From assembly GCF_008831285.2 (NCBI RefSeq), contig NC_045138.2:9145205-9209204 (forward strand): DNA of 64,000 bases, in the 5' to 3' direction. The translations under genes were made by a program, and so were the position numbers. Of the stretch, positions 3,241 through 34,138 are shown piece by piece. The notes under the pieces were generated by a model that saw only the letters and a program-made list of their open reading frames with translations, was not told the DNA's origin and did no database searches. Each line of letters starts with the position of its first letter. Position 1 is the stretch's first letter. The DNA comes from Nymphaea colorata (lineage: Eukaryota > Streptophyta > Magnoliopsida > Nymphaeales > Nymphaeaceae).

Positions 3241-3700
3241 CTATTGCATCAACATTTTGTTTCCTTTCAGCTCTACCATCACCTTTGCCTTCAATTCCTT
3301 AGAAAATGCTCCTTCAATTTCTTTGAATGTCCAACTGTCAAAAAAGAAAACCTTGCAAAAGTCACTGCCTTTGTCATTTAACATCCACAAACAAAAATCC
3401 ACAGTGATTCCATGATGAACTCACTATCCTTTCGCTTTGTCACCATTCCCACTATTTCTGCTTCAAGACCAAGCTTTCTTCACTGGCAACCTCCACTCTC
3501 ATTCCTTCCTTCAATGGGAACATCTCTCTCTTGTTTTTCTTCATGATCATATTCATTTCTTTGCATGAAATAATGCATGCACCATGAAGGAACACATGTT
3601 AAGTACGTATGATGCATCTGTCCAATACAAGGGTATTCAAGTAAATGTGTGCATGTACTTTTCATTCACTAAAGTCAATACTGGAACTTCACATGTATGC
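3241..3700. other. AT-rich spacer, no gene seen
   Basis: I see no recognisable coding sequence, RNA gene or element boundary here. Base composition shifts to more GC near 3700, where the repetitive LTR-like sequence begins. Confidence 0.3.
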
Positions 3701-26517: not shown

Positions 26518-26820
26518 TGTTAAAATTAGCTGTCATACTTAACGTTGTACCAGAGGTCGCATATAATTCAAACAACTAATTCTTGCAACGTTCAAATTCC
26601 AGCAATACTCCTCCTTCCTAGTTAAGCGTTCTCTTCTTAAGAAAGCTTTATTAGTAAAAAGGAAATTTTTCTTGTACCATTGTAAAGAGAAGTTGTAAAA
26701 CAACGTGCTGGCTCTTTGTATATATATAACAGTGTATAATAAAAGAAATAGTTTTTACTCTCCATTTCTATTTAGTCTCTCTTTGCTTTTATGTTTTTTT
26801 CATGAAGAAGAAACTCCACA
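26518..26820 (+). repeat. Copia-2 5' LTR (303 bp)
   Basis: The LTR begins TGTTAAAATTAGC and ends AAACTCCACA. It contains TTTGTATATATATAAC, a likely TATA region, at about 26715-26731. Confidence 0.93.
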
Positions 26821-26832
26821 TGGTATCAGAGC
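26821..26832 (+). promoter_or_regulatory. Copia-2 primer-binding site
   Basis: TGGTATCAGAGC directly abuts the 5' LTR. It matches initiator tRNA-Met. Confidence 0.95.
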
Positions 26833-28782
26833 TATGAGATTAGTGGCAGAGCGTGGACATAAGGAGATCAACAATGGAAGTCAGTCTAGTGATGATGTTG
26901 ATCTCAACATCAATGGTGTCGATACATCCCAAGTGTTTTCTGACCCTTTTTATATTCATCACTCTGGTAATCCTGGAAATGCTTTGGTGTCTCAAAATTT
27001 TAATGGAGAAAATCATAGGATCTGGAGTAGAGCCATGCTGATGGCTCTCTTGGCAAAAAAGAAGATTGGTTTTATAAATGGTCAGTTATAGAACCAAATA
27101 AGGTGACCCTAACCACCATATGTGGGTTAGATGCAACAATCTTGTACTGTCTTGGATCTTGAATTCAATCACTAAGGATATTTCATCAAGCATCATTTAC
27201 TCAACTAATGCTAGAGAAGTCTGGCAAGATTTGAAGAATGCTTCATACAAAGTCATGCTCCTTGGATTTATCAAATCCAGAGTTTCATATGCTGACTATA
27301 GCTAGATACTATGTCCATTGCATCATACTATACTAAATTAAAAGCTCTTTGGGATTAGCTTAGTTCCCAATCTCTTGTTCTGGTTTGCTCATGTGGTGCC
27401 ATGAAGGCATACTCTGACCAAATCCAAAGAGAATGTGTTATGCAATCTCTTATGGGTCTAAATGACTCTTGCAATTCCATTAGAGGGCGGATCCTACTTA
27501 TTGACCCTCTCCCAAATGTAAATAAAGTCTATGCTATGGTACTACAAGAAGAAAAATAATAGGAAGCACATCTTTCTAGTACAATCAATTAAGGAACCAC
27601 AGCCATAGCTGTCAAGAAAAACAATCAAGAAAAGAAGTTCAGCCAAGAGAATAGTGCTCGATTTCAACAAAACAGAGGAGGTCGCCAAAACAGACCAGTT
27701 TGTGGTTATTGTCAAGGTGTTGGACACATCAAAGAAAAATGTTTCAAACTAATTGGGTACCCACCAGGCCACTGATTATATGAGTCTTTAAACAAACTAT
27801 CGCAGCCAACGTGAGCCAAAAACAAATCAACCCAGATTTGAAATCCATCTTTACTAATGACGCCTATAGTCAAGACAGTGGAGGACATGATACTAAAAGC
27901 ATCGCGCCAGCCTTCACCCTTGAAGAATATCATAGCCTTCTATCCTTGGTGTAGGACTAGCCAGCCAACATCAATTTTGCAGGTAATATAGCTCGTGTAG
28001 GTAAAAATTGTTCAACTAATTTACATTCTCTTACTTGGATTGTCAATTTGGGAGCTAGTCGACATATGCAATGATGTATATGCACTTCAGAAATTAAAAA
28101 TGTGCAATGTACCCCTGACATTACCAAATGGGAGAACTCTCTTAGTACATCAGATGGGTAAAATATCTATGTCTTCCTTTGAAATAGACAATGTGTTATG
28201 TATACCATCATTCAAAGTCAATTTGCTATATGTTAGTGAACTTACTAAAAAATTAAAGTGTTCTATAATTTTTTTTTTATCATTGTGTTATCCAAGACCT
28301 GGCATCGAAGTTGACAATTGGTCGGGGTGAGGTGAAAGGTGGTTTGTATGTTCTTCAACAAGAACCAACGTGTCCTCACACCTATTTTACCCTTTCTTTG
28401 CGTGAACTTTTGCATAAGAGATTAGGTCATCTCTCATGTTCTCGTTTAAAATTAGTGAACAAAAATTTAGGTTTAAGCCTTTATTTGAATAATGATCATG
28501 TGTGTGATGTTTGCCATCGTGCAAAACATACACGACTTAAGTTTGATTTGAGTGACATCTCTACTTCTTGCCCTTTTGATTTGATTCATTGTGATATTTG
28601 GGGCCCTTACACCCAATGTACTATTTCTGGTACCTATTATTTTCGTAGTATCATAGATTATTTTTCACGTGCCACATGGATTTTCTTAATGAAGCATAAG
28701 TATGAAGCGCTCCATGTTATCAAAAATTTTTTTGCCGTAATCAAAACTCAATTTAGTTGTCAAATTAAGTCCTTATGATTGA

Positions 28783-29092
28783 ATAATGGGACCGAGTTTT
28801 TCTCACTTGAAATGAAAGAATTTTTACAAAAACAAGGGACTACTCATCGACACAGTTGTGTTACTACACCACAACAAAACGGTGTAGTAGAACGAAAGCA
28901 TAGACATCTCCTCGAGGTTGCTAGCCACTTTGATCGGATAATGGGACCGAGTTTTTCTCACTTGAAATGAAAGAATTTTTACAAAAACAAGGGACTACTC
29001 ATCAACACAATTGTATTACTACACCACAGCAAAACAGTGTAGTAGAACAAAAGCATAGACATCTCCTCAAGGTTGCTAGCCACTTTGGTTTG
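28783..29092 (+). repeat. 155-bp tandem duplication inside the integrase core
   Basis: ATAATGGGACCGAG begins at 28783 and again at 28938, each followed by the same integrase segment through CTAGCCACTTTG. Of the seven or so differences, six are G in copy 1 and A in copy 2, four of them at CG sites. The duplication repeats the catalytic Glu region, so it breaks the protein. Confidence 0.92.
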
Positions 29093-30499
29093 AATCAAAC
29101 CTTCTTATATGTTTTTGGGAAGAATGCATTTTAACTGCCACTTATTTGATAAATCGTATCCCTTCTTCAAAACTCGACAAAAAAACTCCCTTTGAAAGAT
29201 TATTTAAAAAAAAACCCAATATTAAACACTTAAAAATTTTTGGTTCGCTGTGCTACACCACTAACACAAATCACAAAAAGGATAAATTTGAGTCTAGAGC
29301 ATTCAAATGCATATTTATTGGATATCCCGAGGGACAAAAAGCATGCAATTTGTATGACATGAAAACTCGCAAGGTGTTTTCTAGCCATGACTTTATATTT
29401 TATGTGCATATTTTTCCTTTCCAAAATAAAAAAGATGATAAAAATGATGTTGTTTTACCCATTCCTTACAACCAAGATGAAGTTAACTACCAAGAGGTAA
29501 CCAATGGAACATTTTCTAGCACACCACTAGATCTAGAACCAACCTACTTAGAGACCGAAAAGCCTTTGAATCTTGATCTTGAACACCAAGAAGAATCCAT
29601 AGATACCAACGAGCTGAACCCCTCTTGATTCAGACCCAAATCAGACTTTGGGACCCATTAGGAGATCCACACGAGTCCAAAAGCCCATAACTTGGTTGAA
29701 GGAGTACTGGTGTACCCTTCTTGCCTCACCTTCAACCAACGACACTCCCATGTCAGGCTGCAAATAAGGAAGAAGGTGTGCATTAAACAAATTTATCTCA
29801 TTTCATTGCTTTTCTAATAAACATTTTACATTTCTTACCTCTCTTATGTCTAAATTTGAGCCCCAAAACTATGAAGAAGTTGTCCGGTACAAGAAATGGT
29901 GAGATTCCATGGATTGTCAAATTCATGCACTTCAAGAGAATAAGACTTGGACCATTACGATGCTTGTAGAAGGAGTGAAACCAATTGGGAGTAAATGGAT
30001 CTACAAGATCAAAGTGAGATTGGATAGATCTATTGAATGATATAAAGCTCATTTGGTAGCTAAAGGATATTCTCAACAAGAGGGGTTGGACTATAATGAA
30101 ACGTTTGCACCAGTTGCAAAGATAGTAACACAAAGATAGTAACAGTACGTGCTTTTTTTGCTATTGCAGCTAATCAAAATTGGGTCATGCGCCAAATGGA
30201 TGTTGAGTCTTACTTGAAGAAGTATGCATGCAAGTACCACAAGGATATAAATTACAAATCTCTTTATGGTTTAAAACAATCCCCAAGGAATCGGTTTTAC
30301 AAGCTTTCAACTTCTTTTGTAAGGCGTTTGTTACGCCGGAAAAAGACTATTCACTGAGAAAAAAATTTTAAAAATTCAAAATTTTCCAACTTAACAAACG
30401 CAGAAAATTATTTTCGACCGTTGAGGTCGATTGTGGAAATTTTTTTCCCAAAAAAAATTTCCAGCTAGAGAGACGGAAATATTTTTCCGGAAATTTTTA

Positions 30500-31251
30500 A
30501 GCGACTATTCGGGCACGGTCGCGCGTATCGCCTCTTCCCTCAGTCGCCTGTCGCAGCCGCAGCCCTCTTCGTCCTAACGCAACGCAGACTCTGCGTCCTC
30601 ACGTGCCGTGAAGCAGGAGGTTCATTTCTCCTGTGGCTTCTCTTCCACTCTCGGTGTGTCGGGCCATCTATCGCCGGCCGTCGGTGAAAGGTACATCCAT
30701 TTCTCTCCTGTTTTATCTCTTTTCGGTTGTTCTCTCTTTTTTTCTCGCTCTCCCTCTTTCAATCTCGCTTCCTCTGGCGTCCTTTTCTCCATTCCGCCCA
30801 TGACCCTGCGCACCCACCTTTTAATCACAGCCCATTCGATCGTCTTCCTCTTGCAGGGTTGCAGAAATCACGTCCCCTCATCAGTGTGCTCACCGCCAGC
30901 ACTTTAGCAGCATTCATCTTCTGCCAAGTTTGAGCCAGTCGACTGAAGCTAGATGACCCTCTTGCTTCCTGTGTGTTCCTGTTTCAGGTCATATTTCTCT
31001 CCTGCTTTCTCTCTGTTTTTCTCTTGTTTTTTCCTACCCCTTCCTTTCCCACCGGGTGCAGCCTCTCTTCCTCCCTCTCTCTCACACAGTTTTCGCCCAC
31101 CATCGCCGTCGCTTCTTCGCACAGGTACGCCTCTCTCTCTCGGCGATGCGCCTCTCGATGCGTCTGTGTGTATTTTTTCTTTTTTAAATTCATCTTTCTT
31201 CGCTGTTGCCGTGTGACTCTCTCCTCAGCAGCCACCGAAAGCCACCGGCGA
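30500..31251 (+). pseudogene. Captured 5'-UTR-like exons and introns
   Basis: GC-richer, CT-rich sequence contains apparent splice pairs: GTGAAAG|GTACATCC (about 30690) with TTCCTCTTGCAG|GGTTGCAG (about 30857), and TTCGCACAG|GTACGCC (about 31122) with CTCCTCAG|CAGCC (about 31228). It precedes a short coding exon. The pattern suggests a spliced host 5' leader taken up by the transposon; the donor gene is not identified. Confidence 0.45.
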
Positions 31252-31284
31252 ATGGGTTTGTTGGATGAATTGGAAATCTTGGAG
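31252..31284 (+). pseudogene. Short captured coding exon (MGLLDELEILE)
   Basis: An ATG after the CCACCGGCGA context encodes MGLLDELEILE and ends at GAG|GTAACT, a good donor site. The donor gene is not recognised. It could belong to the same source gene as the leader before it or be an upstream reading frame. Confidence 0.35.
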
Positions 31285-32016
31285 GTAACTTTGTTTCAAG
31301 ATTTTCAGTCTACGTTTTTCTTTCTTTAATCATGGGTAAGAGAGTTAAGAGGGAAACCTTGGCAAACAAATTCTTCTACTCAAGAAATGACATGTTTTAT
31401 TTGTGGAATTTCTCAGTGGTAAAGTATGATAAAAAGAGGAACTGTTAACAATTGCAGAAAGAAATTAAAATCTGAAAAGAGAAATTTCATCCATTTCAAG
31501 TTTAATTTGAAAGGAAGCTTTATTTTCCAGGTGACTTCAGTCCTTTGGGTTCAATTCCCATTTTTTGCTTGGTGGCTTGAAATATGTGGTTTCTCGTGAA
31601 TACACTTGGCCGAGAATCTCAGTTTTTACCAGGTTGTTGATTGGTTTAGCCATGATATTCCTGGTCGTGTTGCCTGGATTTTTTTTGTCCATTTCTCATT
31701 CCTCTATTCAAGTGCCTGAGTTCTTTCTTGTGGTTGTTTTCTGATGACCATATGATAGTCATTAGTCATTCATCTTGTAATGCACCATATGGTAAATACA
31801 AGTAAAATCCAATATGTTTCAGTTTTTATTTTCCACAGTTAGTTTCATCCAATACGAATCATTATGCATAACCATGAATTAAGAGTCAAGGATCGTTTCT
31901 TGATAGTTCACCAGTGGCACCGCCAAATTCATGTCCATAGTACATGATTGCCATAGGTGAGAGGGAGAGAGAATGAAAGGATTTCACTTCATTTTATTGT
32001 GAAGAAAATACAGTTC

Positions 32017-32021
<5 letters not shown>

Positions 32022-32091
<70 letters not shown>
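32022..32091. repeat. (TG)n(GA)n compound microsatellite
   Basis: TG repeats with one TTTG interruption are followed by about nine GA units. It lies within the TIR transposon and is followed by T-rich sequence to about 32460. Confidence 0.95.
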
Positions 32092-32789
32092 CCTTCTGTT
32101 TTTTCTTCTTCCATAGGTCATCTATTCATCTTTGTCAGCATCAGCAACTTGTTTTTTTTTCTTCTGTTTCTTCTTTTTTCCACCAATCCCTTTTATTTTC
32201 TACTTCTCTTGCCCCCAAAAAATTCCTTATCTGCTCTTCTTTTACTATTCCGTTTATTTCATCTTTATGTATCCATTTTTTTCCGTTGCTGTTTTTCTGT
32301 CATCGTTTTGAGACTTTTTTTCCTGTGTAAATTAGTGTTTATTGCTTTTTCCCTCTCTGCTTTTATTGTATTTTTTCTTTTTGTCTTTATTTATTTCCTT
32401 TTTGTTCACTTCTGTTTATCTGTCATCATTTCGAACTTCATTTTTTCCATGTAAATTAGTGTTTATTGTATTTTTGTTCTGATATGTGTTCTTTCTAGTT
32501 TGCAGATTTCTTGCATGTGTACTGACACTCTTATTCATGATTTTGTTATTAACTATGAATTTTGACATAATAAATGTTGGCTGGCTATATATTTTGATTA
32601 AGAATATATTTTTTACTATGATTTTGACAATTTGTTAAGGACACGTTTTGCTATTTTTTTGGGTTGTCTAAGCAACTGCCTAGATCATGCCAAGGCTTTT
32701 CAGTTTTGACAATATGGACTTTGGTTTATTGGATCAAAGGTTTAAAATGTGGTCCTTTTACGTGTAAGGAAGGAGCAATTGAGCGGGAG

Positions 32790-32832
32790 ATGGATTCACA
32801 GCAGCCTGAACCAGTGAGCTACATCTGTGGAG
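32790..32832 (+). pseudogene. Captured first coding exon of RNA polymerase subunit 12 (NRPB12-like)
   Basis: ATG at 32790 begins MDSQQPEPVSYICG, then one base and a GTAAAC donor at 32833. Plant NRPB12 (RPB12/RPABC4, the small zinc-ribbon subunit shared by nuclear RNA polymerases) starts almost identically, with MDPxxPEPxxYxCGD, and the phase here fits a following Asp codon. The remaining zinc-ribbon (about 35 residues) is absent: the sequence passes into the transposon's right subterminal region within about 50 bp. I infer a captured first exon with upstream intron and leader. It cannot give a functional subunit, but could be transcribed. Confidence 0.7.
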
Positions 32833-33820
32833 GTAAACTCCGGCAAAATCCTCTTGAACTGAGAATTTTCTATATACTTGTTATTGGTATTTTTCCCATT
32901 TCATTTTCCCATACCATCAAACTCAGAAATATAGAATTGGAAATATATTTCTGAGTCATCACACACACACCAAAATTGGAATTGGAAAAAAAATTTCCAT
33001 TCTATTTTTCCATTTCCTATATTTCCAGAAATATATTTCCAGGCCATCAAACGGCCCCTTGAGGAATATGGGTTCATACAATCCAAAACTGAGCATACTC
33101 TATCCACTTTTAGACGTAGTAAAATTTTTATTGTGGGTAATGTAGAAGAAGCAACTGTCAGTTTCAAAGCCTTTTTATGCAAAAAAAAAAATCATATGAA
33201 AGATTTAGGCAAACCCAAATATTTTTAGGAATTGAAATTACTCGCAACAACCACGACTATCACATTTACAAGCAGCATTTTGTGTCACTCGCTACCATAA
33301 AAAACATCCTGGTCAAGGCATTATCATGAGCAAAGAAAATAATATGTAGTGAAGTGCTTTTTGTGATTCAGATTGGGCTGCGTGTCAACAAACATGATGT
33401 TCTATCATTGGTTATTGCATTTTTCTTAGATCGGTGCCTATATCATGGGAGACAAAGAAACAAAACACAGTATCCTGATCATCCGCAGAAGCAGAATATA
33501 GATCCATGGTAAACATAGTATGCAAGATAACATGGTTAAGATATCTATTACTTGACTTGGATTTCAGTCAAATATCACAAGAAACAGTATACTGTGACAA
33601 CCAAGCTGCATTACAGCAAATCCAATGTTTCAGGAACGGACAAAACATATCGAAATTGACTATCATGTTGTATGAGAGAAATTGCTTCAAGGGGTAATAC
33701 GAACATGTTATATTTAAAGCAAAGATCAAATAGCCAATTTATTGACTAAGGCACTTGGAAAATAAGGTTTTAATAATCTATTATGAAAATTGGGTGTCAC
33801 AAATCTTCACACATCAGTTT

Positions 33821-33829: not shown

Positions 33830-34133
33830 TGTATAAATTAGCTGTCGTACTTAATGTTGTACCAGAGGTTGCATATACTTCAAACGACTAATTCTTGCAA
33901 CGTTTAAATTCCAGTGATACTCCTCCTTCCTAGTTTAAGTGTTCTCTTCTAAAGAAAGCTTTATTAGTAAAAAGGAAATTTTTCTTGCACCATTGAAAAG
34001 AGACGTTGTAAAACAACGTGCTGGATCTTTGTATATATACCAAAGTATATAATAAAATAAATAGTTTTTACTTGCCATTTCTGTTTAGCCTCTCTTCGTT
34101 TTTATGCTTTTTTCATGAAGAAGAAATTCCACA
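33830..34133 (+). repeat. Copia-2 3' LTR (304 bp)
   Basis: The LTR begins TGTATAAATTAGC and ends AAATTCCACA, followed by the target duplication AGTGC. Confidence 0.93.
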
Positions 34134-34138
34134 AGTGC

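Follow-up and report, generated by a model that had tools for sequence, protein, structure and literature searches.

Transposons of the PIF/Harbinger superfamily that carry pieces of host genes, known as Pack-PIFs, have already been found in maize and rice. A survey of these genomes gives a TTA or TAA duplication for 52.4% of PIF elements in rice and 81.2% in maize, and other 3-bp duplications also occur (Gisby and Catoni 2022, PMC8903248). PIF/Harbinger elements of Medicago were mined by the motif G(N)5GTT in their terminal inverted repeats (TIRs), the TTA/TAA duplication and the transposase (PMC2213677). Here we analyzed a 64-kb stretch of the Nymphaea colorata genome (C1:9145205-9209204, hereafter the window), in which a 2739-bp insert interrupts a Copia retrotransposon. 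Taking the explanation as a whole, we consider it very probable that the insert belongs to the PIF/Harbinger superfamily as a non-autonomous element and that it carries fragments of host genes. It is thus another element of the Pack-PIF kind, one whose record of gene capture is unusually readable. The genome searched comprised 408 Mb in 783 contigs (C); individual loci are numbered with an L.

The insert occupies window positions 30320-33058, and reading the sequence on either side reveals TTG at both borders:
30317-30319, no strand: left target-site duplication TTG, a single TTG being present at the site in seven of eight Copia relatives
33059-33061, no strand: right target-site duplication TTG, a single TTG being present at the site in seven of eight Copia relatives
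The initial annotation had placed the limits correctly to the base. It had also proposed that the Copia frame resumes in register if one TTG is kept, which is indeed the case, since the insert and one TTG add up to 2742 bp. The empty site was assessed by aligning 60 bases from each side, joined by one TTG, to eight Copia relatives (L029-L036) picked from 46 match rows, of which one is the window and some are pieces of one place. All eight relatives cross the site without the 2.7 kb, as predicted; the triplet at the empty site is TTG in seven of them and TTT in L029. Beyond the empty site L031 has a separate gap of 15 bp.

The interrupted element is bounded by two long terminal repeats (LTRs), compared by Kimura two-parameter distance (K2P):
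26518-26823, + strand: 5' LTR of the host Copia element, a direct repeat with K2P 0.11 to the 3' LTR
33830-34136, + strand: 3' LTR of the host Copia element, a direct repeat with K2P 0.11 to the 5' LTR
Between them the coding region consists of short broken open reading frames (ORFs). In Pfam the ORF at 30100-30357 matches RVT_2 with 25.4 bits, under the curated cut-off of 31.6 bits, and gag_pre-integrs scores above its cut-off. The host is recognised as Copia mainly from the LTR pair and its relatives, with the RVT_2 score as a weak point. The host is an old, decayed retrotransposon, and the insert jumped into it. A tandem duplication of a 155-bp Copia coding stretch (94% identical) at 28776-29085 adds to the decay of the host.

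The ends of the insert are TIRs, each followed by a subterminal module:
30320-30336, + strand: left TIR with decayed tip, TAAGGCGTTTGTTACGC, three mismatches to the nearest of three sister TIR variants
33042-33058, - strand: right TIR, GGGGCCGTTTGATGGCC read inward, exact, with 154 exact genome copies
30320-30550 (inner limit approximate), + strand: left terminal and subterminal module, common to 24 bounded sisters
32890-33058, - strand: right terminal and subterminal module, common to the family
The right 17-mer GGGGCCGTTTGATGGCC occurs 78 times in forward and 76 times in reverse orientation, whereas the same word written backwards as a control yields no copy in either, so that inverted ends are present beyond chance. 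A search with a left-end query of 1081 bp returned at least 50 match rows (best 40 of 193 candidates scored) and the right-end query at least 40 (best 40 of 444 candidates scored). Among the matches listed, many of the left query start at query positions 3-8 and others deeper, and those of the right query mostly end between 33042 and 33070. We fetched and bounded 24 sister copies. Each of the 25 bounded elements (the 24 sisters and the one in the window) has the two family ends at its tips, the sisters having been selected by their match to the ends in the window. In the fetched copy of L023 no left end was found, and L027/L028, the two ends of one 11.6-kb interval, stand outside this count. 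Intact ends in the fetched copies read GGGG(C/G)CGTTTG. By our reading of the comparison the interiors of the bounded elements fall into about 15 groups while the ends are held in common. The imperfect inverted repeats noticed earlier are therefore real, and sister copies with the same ends and different interiors exist. Among the copies examined, no Copia element carries the same 2.7 kb and no sister has its ends elsewhere.

We then assigned the family to a superfamily. Matches to PF13359 (DDE_Tnp_4) lie between family ends at C1:34402724-34408029 (L021) and C2:4565185-4570341 (L022). Within its TIRs L022 has an ORF of the Myb/SANT type (PF12776, E 3.2e-18) and another that matches DDE_Tnp_4 (PF13359, E 5.7e-16), and TTA stands on both sides of the TIRs. 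L021 likewise has PF12776 and a PF13359 match at C1:34406679; its ends are worn and its flanks unlike. Since L022 combines both ORFs with the same ends and TTA, and given the empty site and the sisters, the insert is best read as a non-autonomous Pack-PIF/Harbinger element. The right TIR also fits the motif G(N)5GTT (PMC2213677), expected in this superfamily within TIRs of 14-25 bp, the left TIR being decayed in its first bases. No PF13359 match was found in the window among the best 150 of 307 candidates, and no search was aimed at other transposase families there; the sole interior ORF scanned against Pfam (32628-32951) had no match. A further interval of 11.6 kb (L027/L028, C1:29396819-29408388) has family ends, TTA on both sides and a DDE_Tnp_4 match inside, and may represent an element that encodes transposase and has itself received an insertion.

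Helitrons have neither TIRs nor a duplication and MULEs generate duplications of 9-11 bp. For hAT elements the duplication is given as 8 bp (PMC8903248). The insert has TIRs and a duplication, unlike a Helitron, and the 3-bp duplication at the empty site together with ends that are not of the CACTA type disagrees with Pack-MULE, hAT and CACTA membership. The length of the duplication and the empty site fit PIF/Harbinger, from whose usual triplets TTG deviates. An exact 3-bp flank duplication was observed in nine of the 15 sisters with both TIRs within three mismatches (six TTA, two TAA, one TAG), so that TTA/TAA accounts for eight of nine exact sister duplications. When the left flank of one sister was paired with the right flank of another as a control, 46 of 210 cross-pairings were identical. 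Several observations weigh against the assignment. Counting the window's element with its 24 sisters, 11 duplications are exact and 14 are not; some of the inexact cases have decayed ends or may be shifted by one base (L012, L016, L018). The window's own duplication is TTG rather than TTA or TAA, and its left tip departs from GGGG, reading TAAGGCG, in contrast to the GGGGCCG or GGGGGCG of most intact sisters. Finally, the transposase of L022 is spread over several ORFs, which may reflect introns or damage.

Inside the ends, the element contains pieces of two host loci:
30610 to about 31040, + strand: captured fragment 1, from the minus strand of C9:13896438-13896820, inner limit taken from the junction text
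31028-32889, + strand: captured fragment 2, covering the 5' part of NRPB12/RPABC4 with introns and its first coding exon, donor C2:7177750-7179715
32790-32832, + strand: first coding exon of the NRPB12 copy, with its GT splice donor after it, read against L002
Fragment 1, a piece of about 430 bp, is 82.7% identical to the C9 locus over 411 aligned bases, and in L007 the match to this locus carries on to 13896020. No family TIR within three mismatches was found in the 1.7 kb surrounding the C9 locus (L037), which is therefore likely the donor. ORFs of the DEAD-box type (PF00270) are located 3.4-4 kb downstream of the donor stretch, with DDX54 and DDX52 among the solved relatives, and we infer that the stretch and these helicase exons belong to the same gene. 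Fragment 2 (about 1.86 kb) differs from its donor by a K2P of 0.078 over 1843 sites, introns included. The donor encodes in two exons a peptide of 45 residues matching plant RNA polymerase II/IV/V subunit 12 (E 1.2e-23; PF03604); a candidate third and last exon, VVQYEAR followed by a stop, lies about 3.8 kb past exon 2. The copy in the transposon, oriented with its 5' side leftward in the window, breaks off in the intron behind the first coding exon, and the exon with most of the zinc ribbon is absent. Both donor loci are still in place, on other contigs than the window. The interior is thus gene-like with introns and not transposase, as had been proposed from the letters. A gap at 31249/31250, where the donor has 96 extra bases, was read as a deletion, since these bases have no GT...AG limits; L001 has the same gap.

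The closest sister, L001, carries the same cargo. Its right end is exact and its left tip damaged. Both cargo pieces are present (C9:25034186-25036249), about 0.7 kb of the middle is missing, and the junction of the two pieces is a C/T-rich stretch common to window and L001. In a 470-site block of NRPB12 the divergence K between window and L001 is 0.024, and that of each to the donor 0.06-0.07; unique changes number four in the window, seven in L001 and 24 in the donor. The cargo was thus captured once and then carried to another site by transposition. The two copies diverge more near their ends (K 0.069 at the right and 0.13 at the left end), perhaps because sequence was exchanged with other members of the family or because change was uneven. 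In L001 (fetched as C9:25033886-25036550) the left tip is lost, and about 13 bp beginning TAAAGAATCA stand on both sides of the element, more than the usual 3-bp duplication.

A search of the genome with an 819-bp strip of the helicase locus from L007 matched 12 elements, L007 included, the same 12 that were compared with the C9 donor; six rows were omitted from the comparison (the donor C9:13896020, C9:13924320, C9:13924779, C7:12555411, C7:12555713 and C5:18775429). The outer edge of the strip is donor base 2681 (script numbering) in nine of the 12 elements. The inner edges vary: positions 201 of the query in L008-L011, 407 in L003 and L026, 652 in L005 and L006, and 819 in L004 and L007, the query itself being cut at L007's own edge. 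Those of the window (406) and L001 (449) represent one junction, allowing for a small deletion in the window. Five lineages can thus be told apart, each with an inner edge of its own (about 201, 407, 449, 652 and 819). The edge at 406/407 seemingly shared by window and L003 was rejected as a sign of common descent, the window edge being shifted by deletion and its junction text matching L001. A strip of NRPB12 shows a comparable picture on the right: from one outer junction it extends for 1.86 kb in the window; in L018 it measures 132 bp, and L014 and L015, where other cargo adjoins, have 33 bp of it. By eye L013 and L016 have a similar strip, which is below the BLAST threshold. Read inward from its right end, L015 shows the NRPB12 strip, a strip also present in L013 and L014, and after it PPR-like and PMR5-type pieces. 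When the 25 elements were searched with six sets of ends, no internal end-like match was detected at E <= 1e-6; as a positive control, this search recovered the two tips of every one of the 25.

Other sisters carry other genes. An alignment scan against Pfam of 142 interior sister ORFs (37 of 179 listed ORFs were left out) yielded nine families, in few members: EIN3_DNA-bd in L013, NMT and NMT_C in L024, PMR5N in L015, and PC-Esterase and four PPR models, for which the members were not pinned, PPR being placed in L015 by reading of the alignment. When 20 sister ORFs were scanned singly, 16 had no Pfam match. Outside known family ends, the EIN3 piece matches C9:9269640-9270431 (95-99%), the NMT piece C1:27275004-27276770 (96%) and part of L015 C1:24361587-24362579 (92-95%); the cargos of L005, L009, L012, L014, L017-L020 and L025 were excluded from these donor searches. 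Relative to its donor L042, the EIN3 cargo of L013 lacks 171 bp and 12 bp, each a multiple of three.

How did the genes enter the element? In the mechanism we propose, a transposase from relatives of the L022 kind would recognise these ends and move the element by cut and paste, and host repair would raise its copy number. During repair of a break or an excision gap, synthesis may switch to an unrelated locus and copy gene pieces into the middle of the element; repeated rounds would replace the center and leave strips of older cargo beside the ends. Judged from sequence comparison, the common outer edge, the varied inner edges and the lack of internal ends in the 25 elements favour such template-switching repair over a fusion of neighbours, unproven as this is. 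That cargo is exchanged from the center by repeated abortive gap repair, with the outer edge fixed and the inner part lost to the next capture, so that the elements form readable capture stacks, is a tentative proposal to which we give somewhat less than even weight. Some observations count against it: three of the 12 elements are off the common outer base (L004 at 2697, L010 at 2652, L026 cut deeper in), three internal end matches of 20-33 bp appear at E <= 0.01 (E 0.004-0.007, all in L018), and two TIR-like words at four mismatches lie inside the window element and L006. In addition, the elements compared had been fetched for matching the window.

Fusion, in the model of Catoni and Gisby, would move two neighbours of the same orientation as one unit together with the intervening host DNA, the internal ends being lost later. 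Published cases concern Pack-TYPE elements, a cluster of maize Pack-PIFs among them, and the model likewise puts the newest DNA innermost (PMC8903248), which again speaks against our preference. Neighbours of the fusion type do occur in this family: in L011 (C12:13125147-13128807, about 3366-3370) another element's right end, one shared TTA/TAA and the next left end follow each other, and in L006 (C5:18775000-18779100, 476-1233) a truncated second copy without left tip comes directly after the element, whose own flanks mismatch. Against fusion stand the lack of internal end remnants at E <= 1e-6 in the 25 elements, the two donors of the window element still in place on C2 and C9, and an outer edge that stays fixed while inner edges vary, which the published section on fusion does not describe (PMC8903248); we regard fusion as unlikely. 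An origin through RNA can hardly be upheld. The insert does sit within a Copia element and could as such be retrotransposon cargo or a retrocopy, yet NRPB12 has kept its introns, TIRs and a 3-bp duplication surround the insert, and all eight Copia relatives are without it. Capture from spliced RNA was also considered for some sister cargos because of the gaps against their donors (171 bp in EIN3 of L013; about 91 and 128 bp in the PPR-like cargo of L015). At base level these gaps have no GT...AG limits and the absent pieces read as coding, so that they represent deletions rather than splicing; this contradicts the idea for both cargos and makes it extremely improbable.

The layered cargo, its outer edges shared and its inner edges varied, allows two published models of gene capture, template-switching repair and fusion of neighbours, to be tested against each other at sequence level. 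In this family remnants of earlier captures persist next to later ones, an arrangement that bears on the capture mechanism, and a single genome links the gene-carrying transposon to its superfamily, a candidate source of transposase, donor loci and the landing site. A literature search on Nymphaea and PIF/Harbinger returned nothing relevant; we do not present layered Pack-PIF cargo as new to the literature.

Pack-MULEs resemble the window element in holding gene fragments between TIRs and differ by duplications of 9-11 bp as opposed to 3 bp. Animal Pack-TIRs, for which gap-filling and FoSTeST models propose template switching with microhomology as the source of cargo, are often single-copy with a bias to nearby donors, whereas we observed a multicopy family and window donors on other contigs (PMC8277862). 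With the PIF/Harbinger-like elements of Medicago (PMC2213677), the window element shares the TIR motif G(N)5GTT (in TIRs such as GGGTCCGTTTGGTTC and GGGCCTGTTTG) and a 3-bp duplication, and its relatives share a transposase with a second ORF; unlike them, it carries host genes and no transposase was found in it. Closest are the Pack-PIF and Pack-TYPE elements of maize and rice, which are likewise non-autonomous TIR elements with host gene fragments from more than one source locus and newer DNA located internally (PMC8903248). Apart from the different genome, the family described here differs from them in that internal end remnants were not found in its 25 elements, and the window element in that about 1.86 kb of its cargo come from a single gene and include introns, compared to 163 and 58 bp in the published Pack-PIF example.

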